Positions 22,861 to 40,794 of a stretch of 64,000 nt of DNA are shown piece after piece. The DNA comes from Bacteroides zhangwenhongii (GTDB lineage: Bacteria; Bacteroidota; Bacteroidia; Bacteroidales; Bacteroidaceae). The notes beneath the pieces were generated by a model. It was not told the origin of the DNA, ran no database searches, and saw only the letters and a program-made list of their open reading frames with translations. Numbering within the stretch: position 1 is the stretch's first letter; each line of letters begins with the position of its first letter. The position numbers and the translations under genes are program-made. The DNA lies in assembly GCF_009193325.2 (NCBI RefSeq), contig NZ_CP059856.1, positions 3,782,001-3,846,000 on the forward strand, written 5' to 3'.

Positions 22861-22896
22861 AATAACAGCCAAATCGGCTGATAGTATAACGTTATC
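22861..22896 (+). other. S0: first recombination site, attI-like candidate
   Basis: A 36-base site between recombinase and cassette 1: AATAACA left box, a short hairpin AGCC-aaat-CGGCT type, then TATAACG|TTATC. It is shorter than the cassette sites and its last base before the crossover is G instead of A, but the crossover TTATC is shared. The identity between cassettes 1 and 5 starts exactly at 22892, so exchange has occurred here. Its place beside the recombinase is that of attI in integrons. Confidence 0.6.
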
Positions 22897-22920
22897 CGCA
22901 ACTAAAAATCAAAAAGGAAT

Positions 22921-23670
22921 ATGAAAGAATTAGAAAACAACTGGATGAAAAAATGGGAATCGGTAAAAGAAAAAACCGTCTGCCCTGTTGACCTCAATAC
23001 TTATTTTGAGCAAGAAGAAATTGCAGGAAAATCGTTAACGACGATTAATATCGGTTCTTGCGATTTGCCGAGTGGAAATCTTTTGGTACGAGATCCATTG
23101 GTATATCTCCCAAACAGAAACGAACGTCCATATTTTCAGAACGCTCCTGCGGGTAAATATGAAACGGAAATTTGTGTAATCAAATCTGACGACGAGGATT
23201 GCGACCGTTATGCCGCAGTACGTTTGCGCTTCAATGAAAAGCGGGCTGTTCGATTCTATGAAGCATTAGTTGGGAATGAAAACCTTGAAACATTGGAAGA
23301 GGGTGATTACTTTGGATTTTGTGTAGATGCTGGTTTAGGATGTGTATGTGATGAAATTATCCACCGTATTTATTGCGACTGGGATGAACAATGGCGCAAA
23401 GATAATCCCGATGATAATCCTTATGATGGATATTTTGCTGCATTATTCAAAGAAAACTATTATCTCCATCCAGAATATCAACGTGCAGGCGGAGACTGGT
23501 TAAATTGGCAAGTGCCGGGGACGGAGTATCATATTCCCATTTTTCAATCAGGGTTCGGAGATGGTACGTATCCGGTTTATTGGGGCATAGACGAAGGCGG
23601 CGAAATATGTCAGTTGGTAATTCAGTTTATTGATATAGAATTAGCCTATGGCAATGATGAAGAGAATTAA
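22921..23670 (+). CDS. cassette 1: DUF4241 immunity-type protein
   Basis: A 249-residue DUF4241 protein, a family found as immunity proteins in polymorphic-toxin loci. Typical blocks are 'DLPSGNLLVRDPLVYL' (about 49-64) and the ending 'YPVYWGIDEGGEICQLVIQFIDIEL'. Cytosolic, no signal peptide. No toxin gene is adjacent, so it would protect against toxins of other cells. The cassette (22892-23722) is repeated without a visible change as cassette 5; start codon lies behind AAAAAGGAAT. Confidence 0.85.
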   Translation: MKELENNWMKKWESVKEKTVCPVDLNTYFEQEEIAGKSLTTINIGSCDLPSGNLLVRDPLVYLPNRNERPYFQNAPAGKYETEICVIKSDDEDCDRYAAVRLRFNEKRAVRFYEALVGNENLETLEEGDYFGFCVDAGLGCVCDEIIHRIYCDWDEQWRKDNPDDNPYDGYFAALFKENYYLHPEYQRAGGDWLNWQVPGTEYHIPIFQSGFGDGTYPVYWGIDEGGEICQLVIQFIDIELAYGNDEEN

Positions 23671-23676
23671 TGTGCG

Positions 23677-23727
23677 GATAACAAATAAATAAGCAACCCT
23701 AACAGTTGCTATTTACAACCCATTAGC
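23677..23727 (+). repeat. cassette site S1
   Basis: Left box GATAACA, inner stem AAATA-A-GCAAC with GTTGC-TATTT (single unpaired A), core CA|TTAGC. Terminus TGCGGATAA (23673-23681) is the reverse complement of the cassette-1 start TTATCCGCA (22892-22900). Confidence 0.85.
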
Positions 23728-23743
23728 TGCAAATAAAAAAATA

Positions 23744-24637
23744 ATGAGCATGGAACTGATACAAACTTTTAAGAAGTCATATTTTCTAAAGATGTCAGAC
23801 GACAAACATTTGATTGCACAAGTTAATAGTAGTCAGATAAACATCTTTGAAAATGAAACATATCGGCATTTAGCACAGTTCAAAGAAGTAGGCGATGCAT
23901 CTGTTTTCTTTTCAGACGACAGCAACTTGCTCTTGGCTAAAAATAATGACCGCAAACTTGTTGTGTATGATTTAGCAACCATGTCAATCCGTTGCAAACT
24001 TAAACCGAAAATAGGCAGTTCAAATGGTGATGGTGACGCTTGTATTTCACATGATAACAAGTATGTCATTAATTTGGGGTATGATTTTCCATACGGCTAT
24101 ATATCAGTTTATGATATTGAAAACGGAAAGGAAACGAGATTCCGTGAAGATATGAGAGAAGTGTATGAACATATATGTTATATCCCTTCACGCCAATTAT
24201 ACTTCATTGACGGGTTTCGCAGACCGGAAGAAGGGACAAGTGAAAAGAATCGGTACTTCTATCTTTGGTTTGATATGAACAACAGAACATTTGAACAAAC
24301 ATTCTGCGATTTGGACGATGCAAATTTTCTGTATAGTGAATATTTAGAGCAAGTGTTATACTTTGCGAAAGAAGGCAATCTTGCTTTTCGCATTTTGCCC
24401 TTAAATATAGAACTGCCAATTAAACACCAACAAGGCTGTTTGGATATACAACTTTCGCATAACAACAAGATGATTGCCTTATATCAAGAAGATAATCTAA
24501 AACTTTGTACGTTCCCTAATATGGAAATATTGGCTGAATTATCAAATATCGGCTATGGTAATATTTCATTCTCTCCTGATGATAAAGAAATATTGATTGC
24601 AAGTACAATAAAAGGGCTTATTTATAAATTGGAATAA
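23744..24637 (+). CDS. cassette 2: WD40/YVTN-like beta-propeller protein
   Basis: A 297-residue protein with about six repeats of the propeller type, for example 'VFFSDDSNLLLAKNNDRKLVVYDLATM', 'CISHDNKYVINLG...GYISVYDIENGKE' and 'ISFSPDDKEILIASTIKGLIYKLE'. No signal peptide. Propeller proteins can act as binding scaffolds; in this array an immunity role is the simplest reading, but no toxin partner is known. A second ATG two codons downstream is an equally possible start. Confidence 0.75.
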   Translation: MSMELIQTFKKSYFLKMSDDKHLIAQVNSSQINIFENETYRHLAQFKEVGDASVFFSDDSNLLLAKNNDRKLVVYDLATMSIRCKLKPKIGSSNGDGDACISHDNKYVINLGYDFPYGYISVYDIENGKETRFREDMREVYEHICYIPSRQLYFIDGFRRPEEGTSEKNRYFYLWFDMNNRTFEQTFCDLDDANFLYSEYLEQVLYFAKEGNLAFRILPLNIELPIKHQQGCLDIQLSHNNKMIALYQEDNLKLCTFPNMEILAELSNIGYGNISFSPDDKEILIASTIKGLIYKLE

Positions 24638-24642
24638 GTGCA

Positions 24643-24695
24643 GCTAACAAGTGGATCAATCTTCCTTAATGGTCGATTATCCACCGAACATTATT
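24643..24695 (+). repeat. cassette site S2
   Basis: Left box GCTAACA, inner stem GTGGAT-C-AATC with GATT-ATCCAC (unpaired C), core CA|TTATT. Terminus TGCAGCTAA (24639-24647) complements the cassette-2 start TTAGCTGCA (23723-23731). Confidence 0.85.
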
Positions 24696-24706
24696 CGCAA
24701 AAACAA

Positions 24707-25330
24707 ATGGAAGAAAAAAACTATATATCAAACTTTGATTGCTCGCTTTGGCAAATTGATGATTGGGGACTATATACAGCCAAATCTCCTATCTATATCA
24801 ATTCTTTGGGCAGCGATTTTAATGTGTGGTTTGATGTGGACGGCGAGAGTTTTCCTACCGACAAACAGCTTGTTGCATGGGCGGGATTTTGCAATATTAA
24901 TTCAAATGAAATAAAAGAAATGATGATTGACGGTCTTACAAAGTTAGTAGATAAAATGGATGTCTTGCCAAATGATGTAGAGCCGGAATTTGGTCCGATA
25001 TATAGACCTATGGCGATTTCGAGAAATGCCAAACGCTCTATTGAAGCTGTAAGACATAGTAGAAAGACATTAGGTAAAGTGGCAAAATCCACCTTAAAAT
25101 GCAATTCGGTTGTTGTACCGTTACAAGATAAAGCTCCAGTTAGATTTATTGTAATGAACTTTGAAATTGGTCGTCGCCCTTATGAAATGGAAGCTGTTTT
25201 TTGTAATGAAAAGATGCTTATGGTCGGTGAAAACTCTGGCATTTGGACTCGCCTTGAATGGATAAATGAGTTTAATGTTCCAATGTTTAATATTGGAACG
25301 GCATTACATCCATATTGGCGACCCGAATAA
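24707..25330 (+). CDS. cassette 3: unidentified immunity-type protein (DUF6985-like?)
   Basis: A 207-residue cytosolic protein. I choose ATG 24707; a longer reading from GTG 24638 would run through site S2 and does not exist in the second copy (35373). It starts 'MEEKNYISNFDCSLWQIDDWGLYTA' and has a beta-rich N-terminal half followed by a helical middle with 'MMIDGLTKLVDKMDVLPNDVEPEFGP'. It resembles small immunity-type domains, but I cannot fix the family. Duplicated exactly, together with cassette 4, as cassettes 18-19. Confidence 0.75.
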   Translation: MEEKNYISNFDCSLWQIDDWGLYTAKSPIYINSLGSDFNVWFDVDGESFPTDKQLVAWAGFCNINSNEIKEMMIDGLTKLVDKMDVLPNDVEPEFGPIYRPMAISRNAKRSIEAVRHSRKTLGKVAKSTLKCNSVVVPLQDKAPVRFIVMNFEIGRRPYEMEAVFCNEKMLMVGENSGIWTRLEWINEFNVPMFNIGTALHPYWRPE

Positions 25331-25336
25331 TATGCG

Positions 25337-25386
25337 AATAACATGCACCTGTTCCGCCTAACGGCGGCAAGCTGCAAACCATTATC
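25337..25386 (+). repeat. cassette site S3
   Basis: Left box AATAACA, inner hairpin CCGCC-taac-GGCGG, core CA|TTATC. Terminus TGCGAATAA (25333-25341) complements the cassette-3 start TTATTCGCA (24691-24699). Confidence 0.85.
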
Positions 25387-25397
25387 GTCAAAAGAAT

Positions 25398-25985
25398 ATG
25401 GAGAAAGGCATTAGAAAAATTGAGCAGAATGGTGTTCACGTTGCATATCTTACTTGTCCTCAAATCAAATTGAATAAGTATAAAGATGCAACTATGTTAT
25501 CGTTGTGGCATATCAAAGGCGACTCAATGGATTTTATTTTGGATATGCCCGAATTGCAAGATATTAGGATGTATGCGTGTAAATTCAATGACTATACAGC
25601 ATTAAGCAAATTGACACATCTAAGGAAATTATGTATTAATGGTATTGCCACAAAGGAAGAGCAAACTTTTGATTATATAGCCAATCTTTCTTCTTTAGAA
25701 GAACTAATCATTGGTTACATACAACCGTTTATCAAATTCCCCAATTTATCGAACTTACATAGTTTATATAAATTATTTATTTTTGAATGTAAAAATTTAG
25801 TTGATATAAAAAGCATAGCCAATATTCCCAATTTGCGTGTATTTGATTGGTGTTGTTCTCAATTAAAGCCTACTGAATTGGAATTTGTAATGCAAAAAGA
25901 CAGTATTCAAAAAGTTGCTGCTCAATTTGGAGGAAAGAGGTTAAATGAAGAATTTAAATCATTATTAATGAAGTACAATTTATGA
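25398..25985 (+). CDS. cassette 4: leucine-rich-repeat protein
   Basis: A 195-residue protein with four to five LRR units of the form 'L..L..L..L.I.....', seen in 'LSKLTHLRKLCINGI', 'IANLSSLEELIIGYI', 'LSNLHSLYKLFIFEC' and 'IANIPNLRVFDWCC'. No signal peptide, so it acts in the cytosol, presumably as a binding protein. The identical gene is found in cassette 19. Confidence 0.8.
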   Translation: MEKGIRKIEQNGVHVAYLTCPQIKLNKYKDATMLSLWHIKGDSMDFILDMPELQDIRMYACKFNDYTALSKLTHLRKLCINGIATKEEQTFDYIANLSSLEELIIGYIQPFIKFPNLSNLHSLYKLFIFECKNLVDIKSIANIPNLRVFDWCCSQLKPTELEFVMQKDSIQKVAAQFGGKRLNEEFKSLLMKYNL

Positions 25986-25986
25986 C

Positions 25987-26038
25987 GATAACAAGCGGAT
26001 GAATCTCCCTAACGGTCGATTATCTGCCGGACATTATC
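25987..26038 (+). repeat. cassette site S4
   Basis: Left box GATAACA, inner stem GCGGAT-G-AATC with GATT-ATCTGC (unpaired G), core CA|TTATC. Terminus TGACGATAA (25983-25991) complements the cassette-4 start TTATCGTCA (25382-25390). Confidence 0.85.
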
Positions 26039-26062
26039 CGCAACTAAAAATCAAAAAGGAAT

Positions 26063-26812
26063 ATGAAAGAATTAGAAAACAACTGGATGAAAAAATGGGA
26101 ATCGGTAAAAGAAAAAACCGTCTGCCCTGTTGACCTCAATACTTATTTTGAGCAAGAAGAAATTGCAGGAAAATCGTTAACGACGATTAATATCGGTTCT
26201 TGCGATTTGCCGAGTGGAAATCTTTTGGTACGAGATCCATTGGTATATCTCCCAAACAGAAACGAACGTCCATATTTTCAGAACGCTCCTGCGGGTAAAT
26301 ATGAAACGGAAATTTGTGTAATCAAATCTGACGACGAGGATTGCGACCGTTATGCCGCAGTACGTTTGCGCTTCAATGAAAAGCGGGCTGTTCGATTCTA
26401 TGAAGCATTAGTTGGGAATGAAAACCTTGAAACATTGGAAGAGGGTGATTACTTTGGATTTTGTGTAGATGCTGGTTTAGGATGTGTATGTGATGAAATT
26501 ATCCACCGTATTTATTGCGACTGGGATGAACAATGGCGCAAAGATAATCCCGATGATAATCCTTATGATGGATATTTTGCTGCATTATTCAAAGAAAACT
26601 ATTATCTCCATCCAGAATATCAACGTGCAGGCGGAGACTGGTTAAATTGGCAAGTGCCGGGGACGGAGTATCATATTCCCATTTTTCAATCAGGGTTCGG
26701 AGATGGTACGTATCCGGTTTATTGGGGCATAGACGAAGGCGGCGAAATATGTCAGTTGGTAATTCAGTTTATTGATATAGAATTAGCCTATGGCAATGAT
26801 GAAGAGAATTAA
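26063..26812 (+). CDS. cassette 5: second copy of the DUF4241 protein
   Basis: The 249-residue product equals that of cassette 1. The identical stretch is 22892-23727 against 26034-26869, equal in length (836 bases), and the two copies diverge at the base before TTATC on the left and just after TTAGC on the right. This looks like a recent duplication by the recombinase rather than homologous drift. Confidence 0.85.
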   Translation: MKELENNWMKKWESVKEKTVCPVDLNTYFEQEEIAGKSLTTINIGSCDLPSGNLLVRDPLVYLPNRNERPYFQNAPAGKYETEICVIKSDDEDCDRYAAVRLRFNEKRAVRFYEALVGNENLETLEEGDYFGFCVDAGLGCVCDEIIHRIYCDWDEQWRKDNPDDNPYDGYFAALFKENYYLHPEYQRAGGDWLNWQVPGTEYHIPIFQSGFGDGTYPVYWGIDEGGEICQLVIQFIDIELAYGNDEEN

Positions 26813-26818
26813 TGTGCG

Positions 26819-26869
26819 GATAACAAATAAATAAGCAACCCTAACAGTTGCTATTTACAACCCATTAGC
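26819..26869 (+). repeat. cassette site S5
   Basis: Same sequence as S1 up to the core CA|TTAGC. Terminus 26815-26823 complements the cassette-5 start 26034-26042. Confidence 0.85.
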
Positions 26870-26892
26870 ATCGAAGAATAAATTGAAATGTA

Positions 26893-27243
26893 ATGAAAAA
26901 GATATTTAGTACAGCACCAGATGGCAATGATAATGCACAATTTGTAGGAGTAGAATATATAAAATTCTCTATTTCTCAGATTGAAGATGTTTGTGATTGG
27001 ATGAGGAAAAACGATGAAATCGCTCAACCATTATTAGCAAATATAGATTTGTTATTAACTATAACGAGAAAATATTCCGTAGATGCAAATCTATTAATCG
27101 AGAAAGACAAAGTAAAAGAATGAAAAAAAGTTTTCAACGATTGGTTTGAGCGTGTTGGTAATAAAATTCCTGCCAAATTCAGGAACGGTATAAAAGCCAA
27201 TGGTGATGAACTATTTAAAGAGTTAGAACAATATGGGTACTAA
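26893..27243 (+). pseudogene. cassette 6a: broken paralogue of cassette 6b, nonsense mutation
   Basis: The frame opens MKKIFSTAPDGNDNAQFVG and stops at TGA 27121-27123, where the downstream paralogue has Trp (KVQEWKKVFNDWF). Behind the stop the same frame continues with KKVFNDWFERVGNKIP...ELEQYGY to TAA at 27241-27243, so one TGG-to-TGA change has cut a gene of about 116 codons. After it, a short frame MGTNDFRKYNLDV resembles the start of cassette 6c. The whole is a decayed tandem copy of the following pair with no recombination site between. Confidence 0.85.
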
Positions 27244-27291
27244 TGATTTTAGAAAGTATAATCTGGATGTAAAACTTAAAACAAATAAAAA

Positions 27292-27639
27292 ATGAAAATA
27301 TTTAGTACTGCACCCGATGGTAATGAAATGGCTGATATGGCAAATGCACGCTACTTTAATTTGGCTATAAAACAAATTGAAGAAAATGCAGAATGGTTGA
27401 AAACAGCCAACAAACCAACACAAGCTCTTTTAGCACATATTGAAATACTAATTATGCTTGCAAAAAGATTTCCAATTGATGCAAATTTGAGTATCAAAAA
27501 AGAGAAAGTTCAGGAATGGAAGAAAGTTTTCAACGATTGGTTTGAACGCTGCGGCAATAAAATTCCTGTCAAATTCAGAGAGGGTATTAAAGCAAATGGA
27601 GATGAACTTTTTAAAGAATTAGAACAATATGGACACTAA
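27292..27639 (+). CDS. cassette 6b: small helical immunity-type protein
   Basis: A 115-residue, mostly helical cytosolic protein, paralogue of the broken gene just upstream (shared starts K-IFSTAPDGN and ends KANGDELFKELEQYG). The gene overlaps the Imm51 gene by 11 bases, which indicates translational coupling; the pair may be a two-part immunity or two immunities travelling together. No family recognised. Confidence 0.7.
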   Translation: MKIFSTAPDGNEMADMANARYFNLAIKQIEENAEWLKTANKPTQALLAHIEILIMLAKRFPIDANLSIKKEKVQEWKKVFNDWFERCGNKIPVKFREGIKANGDELFKELEQYGH

Positions 27640-27982
27640 TAATTTTGAACAAAAAATAATTCAACCTTTCTTTTGGGTCGAGCATGGATCGACATATTCA
27701 GTATGTCTGAATGTTGGAGAATACAAAGCTGAAATCTTCGAAGCAAGAGAGGACGAGGGCTTTGAGGGGAACGGCTATGACTGGGAGTCCTTAGCTCGTG
27801 TCTTTGTGGAAGAACAAGTACCAGAATTATCGGATAAAATTGATTTTGATTCTGAAGGTAGTATGTTTTGTGCCTACTCAAAAGATAAAGAGGCATTGAA
27901 AAGCTTTATTCTACAATTCAAGGAAGCGTGTGAAAACCATGTATTGATTATGGATTTGTTTTCTCGTGCTGAACTTGATTAA
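27629..27982 (+). CDS. cassette 6c: Imm51-family immunity protein
   Basis: A 117-residue protein matching immunity protein 51: 'FFWVEHGSTYSVCLNVGEYKAEIFEAREDEGFEGNGYDWESLARVFVEE' is the hallmark segment (the E-G-F-E-G-N-G-Y-D-W motif near residues 43-52). Imm51 proteins neutralise nuclease-type polymorphic toxins in known loci. No toxin is encoded nearby. Starts inside the end of the upstream gene. Confidence 0.8.
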   Translation: MDTNNFEQKIIQPFFWVEHGSTYSVCLNVGEYKAEIFEAREDEGFEGNGYDWESLARVFVEEQVPELSDKIDFDSEGSMFCAYSKDKEALKSFILQFKEACENHVLIMDLFSRAELD

Positions 27983-27990
27983 GAAACGAT

Positions 27991-28040
27991 GCTAACAAAC
28001 ACCTGTGCCGCCTAATGGCGGCAAGCTGCAAACCATTAGT
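27991..28040 (+). repeat. cassette site S6
   Basis: Left box GCTAACA, inner hairpin GCCGCC-taat-GGCGGC, core CA|TTAGT. Terminus CGATGCTAA (27987-27995) complements the start TTAGCATCG (26865-26873), proving that 6a, 6b and 6c form one cassette. Confidence 0.85.
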
Positions 28041-28056
28041 GTCATATAAAATTATA

Positions 28057-28458
28057 ATGAAACAGATAATAGAAAAAATCAATAAAAGTTGGCACTCCAA
28101 TCCTCCATGTGATCAACAAATAATGTTGAGTGTGGGAAAGTTGTTTCCATTACCCGATGATTATAAGGAATTTATGTTATGGAGTAATGGTGGAGAAGGT
28201 AATATTGGTAGTCAATATTTATCATTATGGAAGATTGAAGATTTGATGCAACTGAACAAAGAATACCAAATACAAAAGTATTTGTCGAAAAAATCTTTGG
28301 TTATTGGCACTGATGGAGGCGATAATTGTATCGGTTTTTATTTTGGAGAACCTACTTTTATTTTTTTACAACCATTAGGAGATTTAGACTTATCTGAGAA
28401 TAGATTTTTATCCCAATCATTTACAGATATGTTCATTAATTGGTTGAGAATAAGATAA
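28057..28458 (+). CDS. cassette 7: SMI1/KNR4 (SUKH) immunity-type protein
   Basis: A 133-residue SUKH protein, the commonest immunity superfamily in bacterial toxin systems. It shows 'LPDDYKEFMLWSNGGEGNIG' (about 32-51) and 'SLVIGTDGGDNCIGFYFG', the usual G-G-E-G and I-G-(S/T)-x-G-x-x-x-(I/F) positions. The start at 28057 is preferred to the one at 28015, which lies inside site S6. Confidence 0.85.
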   Translation: MKQIIEKINKSWHSNPPCDQQIMLSVGKLFPLPDDYKEFMLWSNGGEGNIGSQYLSLWKIEDLMQLNKEYQIQKYLSKKSLVIGTDGGDNCIGFYFGEPTFIFLQPLGDLDLSENRFLSQSFTDMFINWLRIR

Positions 28459-28466
28459 AAAATGAC

Positions 28467-28520
28467 ACTAACAAGCGGCTCAACCTCCCCTGAAAGGTCG
28501 GTTAGCCACCCAACATTATC
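28467..28520 (+). repeat. cassette site S7
   Basis: Left box ACTAACA, inner stem GGCT-C-AACC with GGTT-AGCC (unpaired C), core CA|TTATC. Terminus TGACACTAA (28463-28471) complements the start TTAGTGTCA (28036-28044). Confidence 0.85.
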
Positions 28521-28539
28521 GACCTGAAAAGAACAAGAA

Positions 28540-29214
28540 ATGAAACCAAGAGATATATTTATTAAAGCCTGCAATGAGATAGCTATTCCTTTTATCGCAA
28601 TGGGATTTAAGCCGTCTAAAAATGGACAATGTTTGAAAAAGATTTCAAAAGACAAAAATTTGACTTTTGAAATATGGTTTCGTTCAAGTGTATATAATTC
28701 ATCTTGTAATGTGGCTATATATCCACTGATTACGATTACCTGTAAAAACTTGAAAAAGTGGGTGCAAGAAGAGAATCTCAATGTCAATGATGATGGCTTA
28801 GTATATCATAATCATATTGGATACCTATCGCCAATAAATCAATATCAATCTTGGGATCTTGCCGGACTAAGCTATGCTCCATCAATAAAAACAATAATTG
28901 ATTTACTTGAAAAATATGCTTGTCCGATATTTGATTTATTTGAGAATAGACAAATGGCTATTGACTTCATTACGCAACATGGCTGTTGTTTCAATCAATA
29001 CACGAAAGACTCTCTCCTTGCCCTGCCATATATGTTGAGATATGGTGAAAAGGAACAAGCCGAGAACTACTTCAATCATTACATACATTCAAGTAAATGT
29101 CGAAATAGATTTGTAAAAGCCTATTCTCAATTAGAAAAGAATGATGTAATTGATTGTGGATTAGATAATCGTTTCGTAATACTTGCATATAGTCAAAAAC
29201 TAAAAATAAAATAG
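28540..29214 (+). CDS. cassette 8: unidentified protein, DUF4304-like N-terminus
   Basis: A 224-residue cytosolic protein. The first 80 residues ('IAIPFIAMGFKPSKNGQCLKKISKDKNLTFEIWFRSS') look like DUF4304-type immunity domains, with a Gly-Phe-Lys turn and a beta-strand ladder. The remainder is helical. Exact second copy in cassette 24. The family link is tentative. Confidence 0.7.
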   Translation: MKPRDIFIKACNEIAIPFIAMGFKPSKNGQCLKKISKDKNLTFEIWFRSSVYNSSCNVAIYPLITITCKNLKKWVQEENLNVNDDGLVYHNHIGYLSPINQYQSWDLAGLSYAPSIKTIIDLLEKYACPIFDLFENRQMAIDFITQHGCCFNQYTKDSLLALPYMLRYGEKEQAENYFNHYIHSSKCRNRFVKAYSQLEKNDVIDCGLDNRFVILAYSQKLKIK

Positions 29215-29217
29215 GTC

Positions 29218-29267
29218 GATAACAAACAGATGAAACTTTTAAGGTGGTTTATCCGCCGAACATTAGT
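29218..29267 (+). repeat. cassette site S8
   Basis: Left box GATAACA, inner stem CAGAT-G-AAAC with GTTT-ATCCG (unpaired G, one mismatch), core CA|TTAGT. Terminus AGGTCGATAA (29213-29222) complements the start TTATCGACCT (28516-28525). Confidence 0.85.
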
Positions 29268-29291
29268 CGCTTGAAAAATAAAAAAAAGAAA

Positions 29292-30188: not shown

Positions 30189-30294
30189 TTATAATGGTAT
30201 AGATTAGGTCGTCTATCTGCCATAACCTTTTATGGTAAAGATGATAAAAATATGAGCAGCTAATAGTTGAGTTGAAAAAAGAACAAATTGTGCG
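30189..30294 (+). other. gene-free tail of cassette 9
   Basis: About 106 AT-rich bases with no frame of note; the segment around 30205-30230 faintly resembles a degenerate site. The matching cassette termini (see S9) show that it belongs to cassette 9. Confidence 0.4.
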
Positions 30295-33672: not shown

Positions 33673-33683
33673 GAGATAAGGCG

Positions 33684-33735
33684 ACTAACAAGCGGATAAA
33701 TCTCTCCGAAAATTGATTATCCACCGGACATTATC
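33684..33735 (+). repeat. cassette site S15
   Basis: Left box ACTAACA, inner stem GCGGAT-A-AATC with GATT-ATCCAC (unpaired A), core CA|TTATC. Terminus GCGACTAA (33681-33688) complements the start TTAGTCGC (33059-33066). Confidence 0.85.
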
Positions 33736-33783
33736 GACCATAAAAAAGATTAACTAACTGATAAATAATTAAATGACTGAAAG

Positions 33784-34659: not shown

Positions 34660-34666
34660 TATGGTC

Positions 34667-34717
34667 GATAACAAGAGGCTTAACATCTTAAAGGTAAGTT
34701 AGCCACCAAACATTATC
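34667..34717 (+). repeat. cassette site S16
   Basis: Left box GATAACA, inner stem GGCT-T-AAC with GTT-AGCC (unpaired T), core CA|TTATC. Terminus ATGGTCGATAA (34661-34671) complements the start TTATCGACCAT (33731-33741), 11 bases. Confidence 0.85.
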
Positions 34718-34738
34718 TTTTTGAATAAATAATAAGCG

Positions 34739-35302
34739 ATGAACGAAGAACTAACAAATATTGTATTGAGCCTATCTTCTCTCGGGAATAAACGTATCGA
34801 GAGTTTGAGCAAGAAGGTTCTGAAAAAGATGAACTTCAAGTCTTCAAAAGATTTGGAAAATCTGAAAGACCTGTGTTTTTGGCTGTATATTTATGGTTAT
34901 ACTAATCAGTTTACTCAACTGTATTCAATACTTCTTTCTGTATCGTTTACTGGCAACTGGAATACATGGACACAAGTCGAACTGGTGTTGGCTTTAGTCT
35001 ATTATGCTTCAAGAAAAAGTAAAGATGTTCTGCATGAATCTAAGGCATTGGCGGGAATCATGCAGGCAGAGACGGATGTTGAAAATATAAAGAGTCGATG
35101 CAACGGTTCGCTATTAGAAGGACGAGAGCAAAATGTTCAAGAAAGTATCCAACTTGGGAATAAAACAGATATAAGAGAGGCTCTTTACGCTGAAATGAGA
35201 GAGTTAGTATTGATATATGCTCTCGGTGGAAGTGAAAAATATCCCCTTGAGAAGATTGAGGCAAGAGTAGAGGAAATAAAAGAGAACTTAAAAGGAATGT
35301 AG
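34739..35302 (+). CDS. cassette 17: helical protein, DUF6707-like (tentative)
   Basis: A 187-residue, almost fully helical cytosolic protein. The N-terminus 'LTNIVLSLSSLGNKRIESLSKKVLKKMN' is followed by 'LCFWLYIYGYTNQFTQLYSILLSVSFTGNWNTWTQVELVLALVYYASR', a pattern I associate with DUF6707-type proteins. Immunity role inferred only from the array. Confidence 0.65.
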   Translation: MNEELTNIVLSLSSLGNKRIESLSKKVLKKMNFKSSKDLENLKDLCFWLYIYGYTNQFTQLYSILLSVSFTGNWNTWTQVELVLALVYYASRKSKDVLHESKALAGIMQAETDVENIKSRCNGSLLEGREQNVQESIQLGNKTDIREALYAEMRELVLIYALGGSEKYPLEKIEARVEEIKENLKGM

Positions 35303-35309
35303 CAAAAAA

Positions 35310-35361
35310 GATAACAAGCGGATCAATCTCCTTTAATGGCGATTATCCACCGGGCATTATT
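35310..35361 (+). repeat. cassette site S17
   Basis: Left box GATAACA, inner stem GGAT-C-AATC with GATT-ATCC (unpaired C), core CA|TTATT. Terminus AAAAAGATAA (35305-35314) complements the start TTATCTTTTT (34713-34722). Confidence 0.85.
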
Positions 35362-35372
35362 CGCAAAAACAA

Positions 35373-35996
35373 ATGGAAGAAAAAAACTATATATCAAACT
35401 TTGATTGCTCGCTTTGGCAAATTGATGATTGGGGACTATATACAGCCAAATCTCCTATCTATATCAATTCTTTGGGCAGCGATTTTAATGTGTGGTTTGA
35501 TGTGGACGGCGAGAGTTTTCCTACCGACAAACAGCTTGTTGCATGGGCGGGATTTTGCAATATTAATTCAAATGAAATAAAAGAAATGATGATTGACGGT
35601 CTTACAAAGTTAGTAGATAAAATGGATGTCTTGCCAAATGATGTAGAGCCGGAATTTGGTCCGATATATAGACCTATGGCGATTTCGAGAAATGCCAAAC
35701 GCTCTATTGAAGCTGTAAGACATAGTAGAAAGACATTAGGTAAAGTGGCAAAATCCACCTTAAAATGCAATTCGGTTGTTGTACCGTTACAAGATAAAGC
35801 TCCAGTTAGATTTATTGTAATGAACTTTGAAATTGGTCGTCGCCCTTATGAAATGGAAGCTGTTTTTTGTAATGAAAAGATGCTTATGGTCGGTGAAAAC
35901 TCTGGCATTTGGACTCGCCTTGAATGGATAAATGAGTTTAATGTTCCAATGTTTAATATTGGAACGGCATTACATCCATATTGGCGACCCGAATAA
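35373..35996 (+). CDS. cassette 18: second copy of the cassette-3 protein
   Basis: A 207-residue product identical to that at 24707-25330. Here the in-frame upstream extension seen before the first copy is missing, which confirms the ATG as start. Confidence 0.8.
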   Translation: MEEKNYISNFDCSLWQIDDWGLYTAKSPIYINSLGSDFNVWFDVDGESFPTDKQLVAWAGFCNINSNEIKEMMIDGLTKLVDKMDVLPNDVEPEFGPIYRPMAISRNAKRSIEAVRHSRKTLGKVAKSTLKCNSVVVPLQDKAPVRFIVMNFEIGRRPYEMEAVFCNEKMLMVGENSGIWTRLEWINEFNVPMFNIGTALHPYWRPE

Positions 35997-36002
35997 TATG
36001 CG

Positions 36003-36052
36003 AATAACATGCACCTGTTCCGCCTAACGGCGGCAAGCTGCAAACCATTATC
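36003..36052 (+). repeat. cassette site S18
   Basis: Copy of S3. Terminus 35999-36007 complements the cassette start at 35357-35365. Confidence 0.85.
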
Positions 36053-36063
36053 GTCAAAAGAAT

Positions 36064-36651
36064 ATGGAGAAAGGCATTAGAAAAATTGAGCAGAATGGTG
36101 TTCACGTTGCATATCTTACTTGTCCTCAAATCAAATTGAATAAGTATAAAGATGCAACTATGTTATCGTTGTGGCATATCAAAGGCGACTCAATGGATTT
36201 TATTTTGGATATGCCCGAATTGCAAGATATTAGGATGTATGCGTGTAAATTCAATGACTATACAGCATTAAGCAAATTGACACATCTAAGGAAATTATGT
36301 ATTAATGGTATTGCCACAAAGGAAGAGCAAACTTTTGATTATATAGCCAATCTTTCTTCTTTAGAAGAACTAATCATTGGTTACATACAACCGTTTATCA
36401 AATTCCCCAATTTATCGAACTTACATAGTTTATATAAATTATTTATTTTTGAATGTAAAAATTTAGTTGATATAAAAAGCATAGCCAATATTCCCAATTT
36501 GCGTGTATTTGATTGGTGTTGTTCTCAATTAAAGCCTACTGAATTGGAATTTGTAATGCAAAAAGACAGTATTCAAAAAGTTGCTGCTCAATTTGGAGGA
36601 AAGAGGTTAAATGAAGAATTTAAATCATTATTAATGAAGTACAATTTATGA
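36064..36651 (+). CDS. cassette 19: second copy of the LRR protein
   Basis: A 195-residue product identical to that of cassette 4 (25398-25985). The pair of cassettes moved or was copied as one block. Confidence 0.8.
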   Translation: MEKGIRKIEQNGVHVAYLTCPQIKLNKYKDATMLSLWHIKGDSMDFILDMPELQDIRMYACKFNDYTALSKLTHLRKLCINGIATKEEQTFDYIANLSSLEELIIGYIQPFIKFPNLSNLHSLYKLFIFECKNLVDIKSIANIPNLRVFDWCCSQLKPTELEFVMQKDSIQKVAAQFGGKRLNEEFKSLLMKYNL

Positions 36652-36652
36652 C

Positions 36653-36704
36653 GATAACAAGCGGATGAATCTCCCTAACGGTCGATTATCTGCCGGACAT
36701 TATT
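36653..36704 (+). repeat. cassette site S19
   Basis: Copy of S4 up to CA|TTAT; the next base differs because another cassette follows. Terminus 36649-36657 complements 36048-36056. Confidence 0.85.
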
Positions 36705-36721
36705 CTTCAAAAGAATTGGAT

Positions 36722-37147
36722 ATGAATAAAGGAAATACCATAGAAGATTTTTTTTGTAAGCAATTCATTAAGTCTGGTTATCAAGACCGTTTCTTTTTTG
36801 AACTGTCATCAAACAAAAAAAGAGTAAAAGCTATTAGTCGAATTTGTCATAATATGATGGATATTATAAATGAGAATAAGATTGTCGAGGTCTATAATTC
36901 TACGGATTTAATCCATTTGACAGATAGACTTCGTGAATTATCTAAAGAGAAAGAAGGATATTGCATCGGTTTTTTTGAGCTGGATCAAAAATGGGCAGAT
37001 ATATCAGAGGCTATAAATGCAGGAATACAGTCGAATTTTGGCTTTGCCATAATATTGTCTGATGGAATTGCTTGTATATGTGAAGAAACCGGTATAACCA
37101 ATAGAAGAGCTGTAATATTACACTCCATATCCAAATTGAAAGAATAA
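36722..37147 (+). CDS. cassette 20: unidentified protein
   Basis: A 141-residue cytosolic protein. Start ATG 36722; the upstream extension to 36665 is site sequence. It has an N-terminal helical part and 'LSKEKEGYCIGFFELDQKWADISEAINAGIQSNFGFAIILSDGIACICEE', a strand-helix-strand core. No family recognised. The TAA stop is part of the left box of site S20. Confidence 0.65.
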   Translation: MNKGNTIEDFFCKQFIKSGYQDRFFFELSSNKKRVKAISRICHNMMDIINENKIVEVYNSTDLIHLTDRLRELSKEKEGYCIGFFELDQKWADISEAINAGIQSNFGFAIILSDGIACICEETGITNRRAVILHSISKLKE

Positions 37148-37196
37148 CAAGCGGCTCAACCTCCCCTTAAAGGTCGGTTAGCTGCCAAACATTATC
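37143..37196 (+). repeat. cassette site S20
   Basis: Left box AATAACA (contains the stop of the preceding gene), inner stem GCGGCT-C-AACC with GGTT-AGCTGC, core CA|TTATC. Terminus AAGAATAA (37140-37147) complements the start TTATTCTT (36700-36707). Confidence 0.85.
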
Positions 37197-37226
37197 TGCC
37201 CAATAATATGAACTAAAAAAAGTGAT

Positions 37227-37916
37227 ATGGAAACTAAAGCGGAAGTCCTAAAATACATGTTTACAAGAATACAAGAGATGCTTCCTGTAAATGTGGTCAA
37301 AGCAAAAAAGAATAAAGACTACTTTACTTACATAGTGGAAAACGATTGTAGTATTGAGTTTTACTTTCAAACAACCCAAGGTGGATATGCCGGTAAAAAC
37401 ACTTTTTGTATGGGTGTATCAGCTAAAATAAAGAATCCATATTTATGTAGTCTTGTATTAGAACCATTAAATAAAAAAGACGCTGGTGGTAACATCATAG
37501 TTTGCTTTGATAATAATATTGATTGGTTTAAGCAGCATCTAATGGATATGGATTATTTTTTCGGGAATAAGAGTGACAAGACTCCTAACGTTGAGAGATT
37601 CTTAAACGATTTGAAAAAGGATTTTTTTCCGTATATCATACCTTTTGTCAAACAATATACAAAAATTATAGATTTTTACTCAAATTCGGGTCATATTCAA
37701 CATATATATGCAGATAAACAGTTTAGCTTAGGAGTAATCTGTTCTCTCTTGTGCAACCATGAAGAGTTCATTGAAGAAACTTTGGTTCCATTAGCCAAAG
37801 CAAGTGAAGGAGGTTGGATATTTAGAGAATTTTTTAAGTGCACAAACTACGTTACCGATATAGTTGAGCCGATTAAGAAATATGTCGCAGAGAATAATAT
37901 CCATTTTGAACAATGA
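37227..37916 (+). CDS. cassette 21: unidentified protein
   Basis: A 229-residue cytosolic protein: alpha/beta N-terminal half ('DCSIEFYFQTTQGGYAGKNTFCMGVSAKI') and a helical C-terminal half ('EEFIEETLVPLAKASEGGWIFREFFKCTNYVTDIVEPIKKYV'). The layout recalls cassette 8 (DUF4304-like) but sequence similarity is weak. Confidence 0.65.
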   Translation: METKAEVLKYMFTRIQEMLPVNVVKAKKNKDYFTYIVENDCSIEFYFQTTQGGYAGKNTFCMGVSAKIKNPYLCSLVLEPLNKKDAGGNIIVCFDNNIDWFKQHLMDMDYFFGNKSDKTPNVERFLNDLKKDFFPYIIPFVKQYTKIIDFYSNSGHIQHIYADKQFSLGVICSLLCNHEEFIEETLVPLAKASEGGWIFREFFKCTNYVTDIVEPIKKYVAENNIHFEQ

Positions 37917-37933
37917 GAAGAATAGAATGGGCA

Positions 37934-37987
37934 GATAAAAGCGGATTAATTGCTCTCGAAATGGTCGGTTATCCACCAAACATTATC
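37934..37987 (+). repeat. cassette site S21
   Basis: Left box GATAAAA (C to A against the consensus), inner stem GGAT-T-AA with TT-ATCC, core CA|TTATC. Terminus GGGCAGATAA (37929-37938) complements the start TTATCTGCCC (37192-37201). Confidence 0.8.
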
Positions 37988-38006
37988 CGTCAAAATAAAA
38001 AATAAA

Positions 38007-38420
38007 ATGGAACTTGAATTTAACAATAAATCAGAATCAATTACAGCTAAGGATATAGCTGATGTTGAGCGGAAAAACAAATTTATTTTCCCGCAGGAAA
38101 TCAAATCGTTCCTTCTTGCCAATAACGGAGGTCAACCAAATAAAACGATATACACTCAAAATAGTCAGGATTATGTGGTGGATTTCTTTCTGCCCATAAA
38201 GTCCACAGAATTTGAAGACTTGACGTATTCGGCGACAATAACTGATTTGAGTGATATAATCCCGAATACTGTAATACCATTTGCTATAGATCCATTCGGC
38301 AATTATTTCGTTTTTGACAAAGCTGAAGGTAAAATCTATTTCTTGGAAATGGAAGAAGTAGCTCTTTCCTTATTGGCGAGTGATTTTGAATCGTTTATTT
38401 CATCATTAAAAAAGGAATGA
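38007..38420 (+). CDS. cassette 22: SMI1/KNR4 (SUKH) immunity protein
   Basis: A 137-residue SUKH protein: 'ITAKDIADVERKNKFIFPQEIKSFLLANNGGQPNK' (about 11-45) and 'VIPFAIDPFGNYFVFDKAEGKIYFLEMEE' show the start helix, the N-G-G turn and the D-P-x-G-N-x-(F/I) strand of the family. Start ATG 38007; an upstream frame from 37950 lies in the site. Confidence 0.88.
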   Translation: MELEFNNKSESITAKDIADVERKNKFIFPQEIKSFLLANNGGQPNKTIYTQNSQDYVVDFFLPIKSTEFEDLTYSATITDLSDIIPNTVIPFAIDPFGNYFVFDKAEGKIYFLEMEEVALSLLASDFESFISSLKKE

Positions 38421-38424
38421 GACG

Positions 38425-38476
38425 GATAACAAGCGGATCAATCTCATTTAATGATGATTATCCACCAGACATTATC
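38425..38476 (+). repeat. cassette site S22
   Basis: Left box GATAACA, inner stem GGAT-C-AATC with GATT-ATCC, core CA|TTATC. Terminus GACGGATAA (38421-38429) complements the start TTATCCGTC (37983-37991). Confidence 0.85.
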
Positions 38477-38497
38477 AAATTCTAAAATAAAGCAGTT

Positions 38498-39013
38498 ATG
38501 AGTACAAAATATAACGAAGAAGCAGAAGATCTGATGTTTGAATTATTCGACGAAGATGATTTTACAAAAGTCATATCATTTGTGGATAAGTATGGATGTG
38601 ATTTTGTGGATAGAGATGGAAGAAATCTATTAATGAATTTCATTGTCGAAGGAAAGAGTACGTTTGCCATTGAACTAATAAAGCAATACAAAATGAATGG
38701 TTTGAATTTGGATTTGCAAGATGACTCTGGGTGGACGGCGTTGCATTTCGCTGCTCAAGAGAATAGCCCGGAAATTATAGAACTTCTTGCAGGGTCAAAG
38801 GCAAACTTAAATATCCAAGAAGAAAATGGTCGTACCCCGCTATTCATTGCCATTTTTGATAGAAATGACAAATCTGCGATTACATTATTGGAAAATGGTG
38901 CAGATATAACAGTGAATAATAATTCAGGTGTTTCTCCAATGTCATTTGTAACGAAAAAAGTAAAGAAATGGATAAATGAGAATTTGATAACAAACAGCAA
39001 ACCGACTGAATAA
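38498..39013 (+). CDS. cassette 23: ankyrin-repeat protein ending inside site S23
   Basis: A 171-residue protein with about four ankyrin repeats; clearest are 'DSGWTALHFAAQENSPEIIELLAGSKANLNIQEENGRTPLFIAIFDRNDKSAITLLENGADITVNNNSG'. Ankyrin proteins occur as immunity proteins in toxin loci. The last residues (TNSKPTE) and the stop are encoded by site S23. Confidence 0.88.
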   Translation: MSTKYNEEAEDLMFELFDEDDFTKVISFVDKYGCDFVDRDGRNLLMNFIVEGKSTFAIELIKQYKMNGLNLDLQDDSGWTALHFAAQENSPEIIELLAGSKANLNIQEENGRTPLFIAIFDRNDKSAITLLENGADITVNNNSGVSPMSFVTKKVKKWINENLITNSKPTE

Positions 39014-39036
39014 GTGGAACGCTGCCAAACATTATC
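38986..39036 (+). repeat. cassette site S23
   Basis: Left box GATAACA, inner pairs CAGC with GCTG, same type as S12 and S25, core CA|TTATC. Terminus AGAATTTGATAA (38979-38990) complements the start TTATCAAATTCT (38472-38483), 12 bases, the longest match. Confidence 0.85.
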
Positions 39037-39778
39037 GACCTGAAAAGAACAAGAAATGAAACCAAGAGATATATTTATTAAAGCCTGCAATGAGATAGCT
39101 ATTCCTTTTATCGCAATGGGATTTAAGCCGTCTAAAAATGGACAATGTTTGAAAAAGATTTCAAAAGACAAAAATTTGACTTTTGAAATATGGTTTCGTT
39201 CAAGTGTATATAATTCATCTTGTAATGTGGCTATATATCCACTGATTACGATTACCTGTAAAAACTTGAAAAAGTGGGTGCAAGAAGAGAATCTCAATGT
39301 CAATGATGATGGCTTAGTATATCATAATCATATTGGATACCTATCGCCAATAAATCAATATCAATCTTGGGATCTTGCCGGACTAAGCTATGCTCCATCA
39401 ATAAAAACAATAATTGATTTACTTGAAAAATATGCTTGTCCGATATTTGATTTATTTGAGAATAGACAAATGGCTATTGACTTCATTACGCAACATGGCT
39501 GTTGTTTCAATCAATACACGAAAGACTCTCTCCTTGCCCTGCCATATATGTTGAGATATGGTGAAAAGGAACAAGCCGAGAACTACTTCAATCATTACAT
39601 ACATTCAAGTAAATGTCGAAATAGATTTGTAAAAGCCTATTCTCAATTAGAAAAGAATGATGTAATTGATTGTGGATTAGATAATCGTTTCGTAATACTT
39701 GCATATAGTCAAAAACTAAAAATAAAATAGGTCGATAACAAACAGATGAAACTTTTAAGGTGGTTTATCCGCCGAACA
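39032..39778 (+). repeat. second copy of cassette 8
   Basis: 747 bases equal in length and apparently identical to 28516-29262; ends at CA|TTA on both sides, with different neighbours. Confidence 0.88.
39056..39730 (+). CDS. cassette 24: second copy of the cassette-8 protein
   Basis: A 224-residue product identical to that at 28540-29214. See cassette 8 for its features. Confidence 0.78.
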   Translation: MKPRDIFIKACNEIAIPFIAMGFKPSKNGQCLKKISKDKNLTFEIWFRSSVYNSSCNVAIYPLITITCKNLKKWVQEENLNVNDDGLVYHNHIGYLSPINQYQSWDLAGLSYAPSIKTIIDLLEKYACPIFDLFENRQMAIDFITQHGCCFNQYTKDSLLALPYMLRYGEKEQAENYFNHYIHSSKCRNRFVKAYSQLEKNDVIDCGLDNRFVILAYSQKLKIK

Positions 39779-39783
39779 TTAGC
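39734..39783 (+). repeat. cassette site S24
   Basis: Copy of S8 up to CA|TTAG; next base differs. Terminus 39729-39738 complements 39032-39041. Confidence 0.85.
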
Positions 39784-39802
39784 ATCATATAAAATTGAAA
39801 TT

Positions 39803-40156
39803 ATGAAAGAATTAGAATTAAGAAAACCATATCGTTTACAAGAAATTATCGAAATAGTTTCTAAAAATATAGCTAATAATGGCTTCACTGACTCTAACTA
39901 TTGCTTATACTCCAATGAGGGTACAGCCCAATTGAATCAATTATGCTATTTGGAACTATATCCTACGATAGATGATAATGATGAGGAAGTATATCCAGAT
40001 TTTGTAAGAGATAAGTCTTTGGATTTATTTTATTACGGGCAACAATTTGAAGATGTATTGATGTCCGTATTTGATCAAAAAGAAACTGCATCAATTAATG
40101 ACTATATTGATGCGTTGAACTATTATATGGAAAATGATACGTTTATGGATTTCTGA
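39803..40156 (+). CDS. cassette 25: small acidic protein, DUF7716-like
   Basis: A 117-residue acidic cytosolic protein (start ATG 39803, not the site-derived 39746). The C-terminal half 'YPDFVRDKSLDLFYYGQQFEDVLMSVFDQKETASINDYIDALNYYMENDTF' matches a widespread small family I recall as DUF7716, often seen among orphan immunity genes. The high share of Asp and Glu would suit an inhibitor of a nucleic-acid-binding toxin. Confidence 0.72.
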   Translation: MKELELRKPYRLQEIIEIVSKNIANNGFTDSNYCLYSNEGTAQLNQLCYLELYPTIDDNDEEVYPDFVRDKSLDLFYYGQQFEDVLMSVFDQKETASINDYIDALNYYMENDTFMDF

Positions 40157-40160
40157 TGAT

Positions 40161-40211
40161 GCTAACAAACAGCAAACCGACTGAATAAGCGGAACGCTGC
40201 CAAACATTATC
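40161..40211 (+). repeat. cassette site S25
   Basis: Left box GCTAACA, S12-type inner part, core CA|TTATC. Terminus ATGATGCTAA (40156-40165) complements the start TTAGCATCAT (39779-39788). Confidence 0.85.
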
Positions 40212-40234
40212 TATTTAATAATAAGCATAAAACT

Positions 40235-40718
40235 ATGATTTACTTCTATCTTAAGTTTATTGAGTTGCGGGCATGGGAATAAACGAGTGACGCAAAACGA
40301 CGGTATAAACTCCAATATCCCGGTTGCTGCCCGGATTACGATAGACAAACTGCCGGATGTATTGAGAAACGTGCAGGCAGGAAATACTGATTATGATTTT
40401 ATAGGTATTTGTTCCAATGGTGTGGACTGCATCTACTTTGTGCTGGAGAACGGAAAGTTTTACATAGATTTTGAAGCTATGGGTAAAGAGCAGCTTCCCT
40501 ACATAGATACCTTGAAACAGTTCGCAAAGGAACATAATTATCCTATTGTCGAAACAACCTATAACAATACTCCGGTCGATTACGAACATCTGAAATACGC
40601 TCCCGTCCTTAGCCTGAAAGTCAATGCTGACATAGACAGCATCGTAAAGGTCGGAAAACAGATTGAGCAGACCATTTTCAGGAACAACGAACGAACCGTT
40701 TACGAAATAGTGCCTTGA
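40235..40718 (+). pseudogene. cassette 26: lipoprotein-like gene with disrupted signal peptide
   Basis: The long frame (about 152 codons from 40260) reads upstream as TSILSLLSCGHGNKRV, a typical end of a lipoprotein signal with lipobox LLSC, but this frame meets a stop at 40236-40238. The only ATG at hand (40235) is in the neighbouring frame and ends after 15 codons. A single frameshift near 40240 would join them. So the gene is either broken or uses a TTG start (40260) and is no longer exported. The C-terminal part is intact and shows 'DYDFIGICSNGVDCIYFVLENGKFYIDFEAMGKEQLPYIDTLKQFA'. Confidence 0.65.
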
Positions 40719-40745
40719 TTTTGCCAATAAAGACATTAAGATTTA

Positions 40746-40794
40746 GATAACAAACAGCACTGCCGCTTAAAGCGAAACGCTGCCAAGCATTACC
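40746..40794 (+). repeat. cassette site S26
   Basis: Left box GATAACA, inner CGCT-taa-AGCG within CAGC/GCTG, core CA|TTACC. Terminus TAGATAA (40744-40750) complements the start TTATCTA (40207-40213), 7 bases, the shortest match. Last fully formed site. Confidence 0.8.

Follow-up and report, generated by a model that had tools for sequence, protein, structure and literature searches.

How do the arrays of immunity genes that lie behind a tyrosine recombinase gene in gut Bacteroidales acquire their members? The question is raised by a stretch of 64,000 nucleotides from Bacteroides zhangwenhongii (assembly GCF_009193325.2, contig NZ_CP059856.1, positions 3,782,001 to 3,846,000 of the forward strand; hereafter the window), in which a recombinase gene is followed by an array of short co-oriented genes at 22892-40789. 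The locus resembles the recombinase-associated acquired interbacterial defence (rAID) arrays, which protect against attack by the type VI secretion system (T6SS), and for which PMC12247911 leaves the mechanism of biogenesis and growth open. The array very probably belongs to an integron-like gene-capture platform on a conjugative element, from which cassettes would be excised as circles and inserted at an attI-like core, with a folded single strand serving as the recombination site.

Cut at its TTA cores, the array splits into 26 units, 22 of them distinct by head and tail. These are listed below by window position and strand, each with its site and with the length of the pairing between its head and tail (run, counting the TTA).

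22892-23722, + strand: unit 1, DUF4241 (Pfam); site 23679-23725; run 9
23723-24690, + strand: unit 2, only weak beta-propeller matches below cut-off; site 24645-24693; run 9
24691-25381, + strand: unit 3; site 25339-25384; run 9
25382-26033, + strand: unit 4, LRR (Pfam); site 25989-26036; run 9
26034-26864, + strand: unit 5, 99.3% copy of unit 1; site 26821-26867; run 9
26865-28035, + strand: unit 6, Imm51 gene (Pfam) preceded by two small open reading frames (ORFs); site 27993-28038; run 9
28036-28515, + strand: unit 7, SUKH (Pfam); site 28469-28518; run 10
28516-29262, + strand: unit 8; site 29220-29265; run 10
29263-30345, + strand: unit 9, Imm22/DUF4284 in two stretches (Pfam); site 30297-30348; run 8
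30346-30981, + strand: unit 10; site 30939-30984; run 9
30982-31589, + strand: unit 11; site 31545-31592; run 9
31590-32111, + strand: unit 12; site 32068-32114; run 4 owing to a single mismatch, after which pairing resumes
32112-32580, + strand: unit 13; site 32537-32583; run 8
32581-33058, + strand: unit 14, SUKH (Pfam); site 33016-33061; run 10
33059-33730, + strand: unit 15, SUKH (Pfam); site 33686-33733; run 8
33731-34712, + strand: unit 16; site 34669-34715; run 12
34713-35356, + strand: unit 17, DUF6707 (Pfam); site 35312-35359; run 10
35357-36047, + strand: unit 18, copy of unit 3; site 36005-36050; run 9
36048-36699, + strand: unit 19, copy of unit 4; site 36655-36702; run 9
36700-37191, + strand: unit 20; site 37145-37194; run 8
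37192-37982, + strand: unit 21; site 37936-37985, beginning TAAAA rather than TAACA; run 11
37983-38471, + strand: unit 22, SUKH (Pfam); site 38427-38474; run 9
38472-39031, + strand: unit 23, ankyrin repeats (Pfam); site 38988-39034; run 12
39032-39778, + strand: unit 24, copy of unit 8; site 39736-39781; run 10
39779-40206, + strand: unit 25, DUF7716 (Pfam); site 40163-40209; run 10
40207-40789, + strand: unit 26; site 40748-40792; run 7
40790-42006, + strand: distal array remnants, comprising an ORF without Pfam family, an ankyrin ORF (Pfam) and decayed sites near 41139-41175 and 41964-42006

In every unit the head is the reverse complement of the unit's own tail as it runs into TAA. Among the 22 distinct units, head and tail agree in 22 at position 4, 21 at position 5, 22 at positions 6 and 7, and 21 at position 8. 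Agreement then falls to 17/22 at position 9, 11/22 at position 10, and 7, 11 and 4 at positions 11-13, the last three being about the level expected from AT-rich DNA. Dependable pairing is TTA plus five or six bases (8-9 bp), and longer runs, up to 12, are partly luck. The mean run beyond TTA is 6.1 bases in true pairs of distinct units, against 0.90 in mismatched pairs, and the junctions that exist in the array (the tail of one unit against the head of the next) do no better than the latter at 0.72. Likewise, 108 of 110 matches were observed at five positions, compared with a mean of 50.1 (sd 5.3, maximum 72) when tails were shuffled, with none of 20,000 shuffles reaching the observed value. 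Pairing is a property of the unit and not of the junction, and would make a stem if the unit's two ends were joined. The decayed sites by which the array continues past 40789 were seen directly; distal decay was also sought as a statistical trend, but the mismatch strings of chained arrays give no clear one.

An earlier note, made from the letters of this DNA alone, had claimed such own-end complementarity in 26 cassettes (22 distinct), and this is borne out by the comparison of true with shuffled pairs that it proposed. The heads and tails of its three example cassettes are exact. Its statement that only cassette 12 is mismatched holds insofar as that unit has a single mismatch, at position 5, but unit 26 pairs across just seven bases. 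The core it gave as CA|TTA is correct internally, while the first core is CG|TTA, and the terminal TAACA box is present at the other sites but not at that of unit 21 (37936). Terminal inverted repeats of transposons were also considered and are ruled out, because the ends differ from unit to unit and each unit extends ~45 nt past its tail.

Own-end pairing is general across related Bacteroidales arrays. Species genomes were scanned with the recombinase, and the best 80 of 569 confirmed loci were used; these include group A, with 73-100% identical recombinases (23 loci, 15 with at least two units, 102 distinct units), and group B, with 46-49% identical recombinases (28 loci, 21 with at least two units, 97 distinct units), to which a second locus of the window's own genome belongs. 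Sites were picked by motif only (TAAC..CATTA), pairing having no part in their selection. Runs of at least five bases beyond TTA occur in 70/102 (A) and 56/97 (B) distinct units, compared with 1.8% and 1.9% of mismatched pairs; within-locus shuffles yield 225.7 ± 13.4 and 220.3 ± 12.1 five-position matches where 413/510 and 361/485 are observed. Missed or false sites account for at least part of the difference from 100%. The earlier note had named related arrays as a place where its claim could fail, and the pairing is kept there. Among adjacent units in 49 arrays, 207 of 291 pair exactly at the five variable positions and 26 carry one mismatch. Covariance models were built for two site types (genome scan at E up to 0.1, with the best 150 first-look candidates scored for each), giving 21 and 3 matches in the 5.32 Mb genome; 20 are in the window's array and 4 in a second recombinase-adjacent array, all on the bottom strand, and among the candidates scored none lies elsewhere in the genome. 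Under stricter filters, 7 of 121 genomes of the family, including this one, contain a match. In addition, a 46-kb plasmid of Phocaeicola massiliensis encodes a 69% identical recombinase followed by sites of this type.

When the end and start of a unit are joined as in a circle, the predicted fold is one hairpin with a unit-specific outer stem. In its core, TAATG pairs with TGTTA; two of these pairs are G.T wobbles on the bottom strand, where the top strand has A.C and C.A mismatches. Beyond the core, 3-4 nt stay unpaired as a spacer on the R'-L' side, and the hairpin is completed by an inner stem, from which one or two bases bulge out on the R''-L'' side, and by a loop. Fold energies were compared at sites defined by motif alone, 23 in the window, 117 in group A and 112 in group B (252 in total). 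In that order, mean bottom-strand energies are -11.8, -12.0 and -11.6 kcal/mol with the unit's own head, compared with -6.6, -7.6 and -8.7 kcal/mol with the next unit's head and -7.0, -7.9 and -8.9 kcal/mol with a random one; the own head is better than the next at 21/23, 98/117 and 85/112 sites. The bottom strand is predicted to be more stable than the top at 20/23, 97/117 and 97/112 sites (214/252), as also in an earlier unselected set (19/21, 85/102 and 84/97) and in chained units (102/112 and 91/110). Single mismatches between head and tail point the same way: 15 of 26 can wobble on the bottom strand only, 4 on the top only and 7 on neither (15 v 4, two-sided p 0.02), with that of unit 12, a C.A on the top strand and hence G.T on the bottom, falling into the first class. 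This bias favours the bottom strand and speaks against pairing in a sense mRNA. Within two structural classes of site types, the inner helix, which was not used for selection, is paired in 93.3% and 91.4% of cells and has changed on both sides in 9/11 and 7/10 pairs. With both helices taken together, covariation scores 0.558 and 0.526, compared with 0.204 and 0.181 after shuffling and at most 0.122 when the alignment is slid.

A short leader separates the recombinase gene from the first core:

22850-22891, + strand: attI-like leader, with a hairpin CAGCC-AAATC-GGCTG (22866-22880), then ATAGTATAACG to the first core

Between the stop codon of the recombinase gene and the first core, this leader has the same sequence in the window and in related loci L013-L018, and differs by a single base in L020 and L021; downstream of it, the first cassettes differ between most of these loci. 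The bases at -2/-1 are CA at 125/130 (A) and 121/122 (B) internal cores, but CG (10), CA (4) or TG (1) at the first cores of group A, and AA (14) or CA (7) at those of group B; G|TTA is confined to first cores of group A (CG or TG in 11/15). Since first cores differ from the internal CA at these two positions, strand transfer most likely occurs right of the -1 base, with insertion at the leader in the manner of attI. A common right half of attI was sought after the last cassette by comparing loci, whose sequences differ there and show no clear shared end. As a separate observation on the leader hairpin, L022 has a compensatory change in the stem (CAGCC/GGCTG to CAGCG/CGCTG), and L031 and L035 break it.

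The units recur as blocks in other genomes. Twelve of the 22 distinct units (1, 3, 4, 7, 8, 9, 10, 13, 20, 21, 22 and 23) have copies of at least 97% identity in other species and four (14, 15, 16 and 26) have copies at 89-95%, while the remaining six have none at the cut-offs used. Among the twelve, five (1, 4, 8, 10 and 13) lose identity no more than 10 bases from the core on both sides, and six do so on one side; unit 21 continues into a shared neighbour. Where identity does continue past the core, the adjacent site is alike or the adjacent unit is shared. When cassettes of 47 arrays (from 52 places in groups A and B and the window; 45 with at least one chained cassette) were clustered at 85% identity, 279 cassettes fell into 187 clusters, of which 51 occur in more than one locus, mostly in different order and company. 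Five clusters are common to group A and group B, and cassette order is shuffled across genera. Some loci are more alike: L057 and L058, from one species, hold the same five cassettes, and L015 and L017 share six leading cassettes.

The gene next to the leader encodes the candidate enzyme:

21731-22849, + strand: tyrosine recombinase, 372 aa (Pfam PF13495 and PF00589)

The predicted model (pLDDT 82, pTM 0.55) has an N-terminal, beta-rich domain of ~75-90 aa, a SAM-like domain and a catalytic domain. R223, K248, H312, R315, H338 and Y347, which we take to be the active-site residues of a tyrosine recombinase, do not vary across an alignment of 37 rows. Among solved structures, those of XerA and IntI4 come nearest, and no NCBIfam cut-off is reached, whether for XerA (210 of 220 bits, the best), the integron integrase TIGR02249 (203.4 of 265, the second), XerC or XerD. 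The spacing from the conserved K to the box II H is 65 residues here (K248-H312) and 65-66 in this recombinase type, compared with 107 in IntI1/IntI2, and is 73 and 70 in two Xer-like paralogues of the genome. The short spacing indicates that the IntI additional domain is absent; this domain, located around patch III, is named in PMC9668308 as defining for IntI, and is described there and in PMC8138268 as necessary for integron recombination. In two trees, the array-bearing recombinases form one clade (16 rows, 100/99; 7 rows, 98/95), nested among Bacteroidota homologues whose branching is poorly resolved and next to which arrays were not detected. The IntI rows fall outside on long branches, so that the tree does not settle independence from IntI. 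Among 30 plasmid matches listed in even steps from at least 5000, most are IntI1/IntI2 at about 31%, with one Paraburkholderia and one Sinorhizobium recombinase ranking above them.

These features suggest a cycle in which the recombinase would excise single cassettes as circles and insert them at the attI-like core directly downstream of its own gene. The cassette site would be recognised in single-stranded, folded form, with the bottom strand the most likely substrate; in the circle, the first ~8 bases of a cassette (TTAnnnnn) would pair with its own last ~8 (nnnnnTAA) as an outer stem, continued by the conserved TAATG/TGTTA core with its two G.T pairs, the unpaired spacer, the inner stem with one or two bulges and the loop. 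Strand transfer would take place just right of the -1 base, at CA|TTA (CA|TT in the transposase cassettes described below), and the cargo, presumably expressed, would consist of immunity genes against T6SS and related attack. Given that complete closure of the outer stem requires the circle, a free circle would be a better site than a resident one, and capture would be favoured. The attC analogue and non-IntI recombinase envisaged in the earlier note thus find support as far as sequence goes, in the covarying hairpin, the predicted bottom-strand bias and the absent IntI additional domain.

Other processes could account for parts of this pattern. It is unlikely that the arrays grow by duplicating genes and by homologous recombination at intergenic repeats of near-identical sequence: this would suit the repeated units 1/5, 3-4/18-19 and 8/24, and site types shared between neighbours could give homology, but it explains neither the own-pair complementarity nor why identity stops within 10 bases of the core on both sides in 5/12 units, and has no account of different first units behind one fixed leader. 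Homologous recombination may still have a part in moving blocks, for instance units 3-4 = 18-19. A conventional double-strand, XerCD/dif-like recombination between intergenic repeats, with the termini pairing for another reason, is quite unlikely. The nearest structures, the sub-threshold best match to XerA and the conservation of CA|TTA and its left flank agree with it; the right arm beyond TTA varies between most units, however, which would leave an enzyme acting on double strands with no conserved second arm, and this reading offers no role for the own-pair covariation, for the compensatory changes in the inner stem or for the strand asymmetry.

That the locus is an ordinary IntI integron with divergent sites is very improbable, despite the same anatomy, the IntI1/IntI2 majority among the plasmid matches listed and the second-ranked NCBIfam match, because the K-to-H spacing and TIGR02249 score (203 of 265 bits) depart from IntI and CATTA/TAACA stand in place of the integron boxes. 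Least probable of all is that the complementarity acts in mRNA, by forming a stem that closes off the individual genes of a polycistronic transcript. Head and tail do flank each gene in the linear array too, but on the sense strand single mismatches are A.C in 15/26 and G.T in 4, the opposite of what RNA pairing tolerates, the conserved TAACA/CATTA core would carry A.C and C.A mismatches, and unit identity often breaks at the start of the head.

Several observations count against the integron-like capture of circular cassettes. The own head is no better than the next unit's at 48/252 sites, the energies were computed for naked DNA, and site counts are not independent trials because the sites are related; the circle-versus-array comparison on chained units is partly circular, though that on motif-alone sites is not. 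The covariation set comprises 19 and 14 of 49 site types, in two classes picked by eye with 16 left out; its structures were taken from folds of those same sequences, its outer helix is partly circular, since a limit of one mismatch was applied in chaining the units, and 'further pair types' are no more numerous than in shuffles, of which 163 and 80 of 500 attain the observed value. More than one mismatch separates the ends in 58/291 adjacent units, through missed or false sites or decay, and one site model (R1) recovered 20/26 window sites. Circle junctions, sought in viral contigs with three exact patterns, gave zero matches, in what is a weak test. Beside more distant homologues (40-52%), a motif-based scan and a repeat scan of 17 loci, several on short contigs, detected no comparable array, but only single or few repeat pairs and, at L066 (Marinifilum fragile), unlike repeats. 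Motif-free chaining of complementary 8-mers recovers known arrays but is noisy (chains up to 15 in shuffled sequence) and, in the output listed, could not reveal arrays beside the distant homologues. The repeats of Marinifilum fragile lie upstream of its recombinase gene (L066:6264-8833) and comprise seven copies of ~50 nt, five of which reach 164 nt, spaced about 360-490 nt apart.

Certain arrays of this type begin with a transposase gene. The first cassette of L014, L030, L044 and L050 (two in tandem in the last) encodes an IS91-type HUH transposase, with Y2_Tnp and Zn_Tnp_IS91 matches in L044 and 90-99% identity in the other copies; contig ends cut the same cassette short in L042, of which 25 residues are present, and in L035, where just the leader is left. 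The head of this cassette, TTCAAG.., is complementary to its tail, ..CTTGAA, across 9 bases in L044 and L050 and with one bottom-strand wobble in L014 and L030, and its own site lies behind it with the core TTC/GAACA, so that the core of this cassette is CA|TT. Relatives of the transposase occupy 24 places in 295 genomes of the order, and at 17 of these the gene immediately upstream encodes a short tyrosine recombinase from the extended family (G217, G210, G222 and G230 among these), while the two closest relatives (G243 and G053) have no recombinase in the pieces fetched. Seven partner recombinases and one from Paraburkholderia form one group (8 rows, L176 apart; 97/94) beside the array-type lineage. 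L176, the further of two recombinases in its locus, groups with the array-type lineage with weak support. Stand-alone IS91-type genes checked as cassettes (L174 and L175) have no paired ends with a site behind. The array recombinases may share an origin with the IS91 partners, and the HUH protein may supply single strands. More speculatively, the arrays could represent a second kind of integron, in which a non-IntI recombinase, of a lineage allied to IS91-type partners, independently came to use folded single-stranded sites and the first-cassette HUH gene supplies or copies single-stranded cassettes; this extension is doubtful.

The cargo and surroundings of the array agree with a mobile defence locus. 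SUKH domains are encoded in units 7, 14, 15 and 22, and Imm51, Imm22, DUF4241, LRR, ankyrin, DUF6707 and DUF7716 families are also present, 11/22 distinct units having a Pfam match above cut-off. Two similar small tandem ORFs are apparent by eye before the Imm51 gene of unit 6 (26880-27640), the first of them split. Neighbouring genes encode RteC, TraG-like and topoisomerase III-like proteins, and 100% identical recombinases occur in Phocaeicola, Paraprevotella and Bacteroides; together, these indicate that the locus lies on a conjugative element. Further upstream, the window encodes a YhcG-type nuclease protein (9848-10861) and a protein of 2040 aa that matches helicases and, weakly, methylases (10925-17047).

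The traits by which rAID loci are delimited, as given in PMC12247911, include a recombinase homologous to BF9343_RS08045. In the window, a tyrosine recombinase gene lies upstream of at least two co-directional genes; GC content is below 41% in 26/27 ORFs (3 of the 27 starts used were not start codons) and 34.4% over the array, compared with 51.6% and 53.7% in the flanks; the genes form a putative orphan immunity array (SUKH in four units, Imm51, Imm22); and 26 conserved intergenic motifs of the form TAACA/TAAAA...CATTA are present. The locus fits rAID, an assignment that rests on layout and genes rather than on homology to BF9343_RS08045, and an integron-like cassette system is probably how rAID arrays grow. 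rAID would thereby gain a concrete, testable mechanism of gene capture. Furthermore, since head and tail pairing defines exact cassette borders, immunity genes become extractable from genomes and metagenomes by rule. The system also suggests that the integron solution, a site that closes only in the circle, can work without the domain described as necessary in PMC9668308 and PMC8138268. Among the papers listed by literature searches, judged mostly on titles and the beginnings of abstracts, none was seen to describe these sites, and none of the papers searched mentions acquired interbacterial defence together with integrons. Ross 2019 may already have compared rAID with integrons, and priority for the analogy is left undecided.

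The system shares features with three known ones. Partner recombinases of IS91-type elements branch beside the array-type lineage, and four arrays start with an IS91-type transposase, but the seven partners examined (in pieces of 3.5-5 kb) are short, at 285-305 aa. With rAID it shares a recombinase upstream of co-oriented short immunity genes, intergenic motifs, low GC, SUKH and Imm families and occurrence in several Bacteroidales genera. No feature tested contradicts membership; the present analysis adds a cassette unit, an attI-like leader, a hairpin that closes only in the circle and a proposed mechanism. In classical integrons, too, the head and tail of one cassette are complementary as a circle, a cassette is a gene with a 3' site, and insertion occurs beside the integrase gene. 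Integrons recombine a single-stranded attC with a double-stranded attI. The integron R boxes read RYYYAAC and GTTRRRY, where TAACA and CATTA are found here. The predicted folds and covariation provide analogues of the unpaired central spacer, the extrahelical bases on the R''-L'' arm, the variable terminal structure or loop and the bottom-strand bias of attC hairpins (described in PMC2727003 and PMC8946536), and the conserved leader beside the recombinase gene, followed by different first cassettes, corresponds to attI. As in archaeal integrons, recombinase and cassettes are co-oriented with attI directly behind the gene (PMC9668308). Unlike in IntI integrons, the core CA|TTA pairs TAACA through G.T wobbles, the outer stem is unit-specific across ~8 bp, and the recombinase has an extra N-terminal domain and no IntI additional domain around patch III. 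Judged on these sequence features, the system is integron-like but not a member of the IntI integrons.

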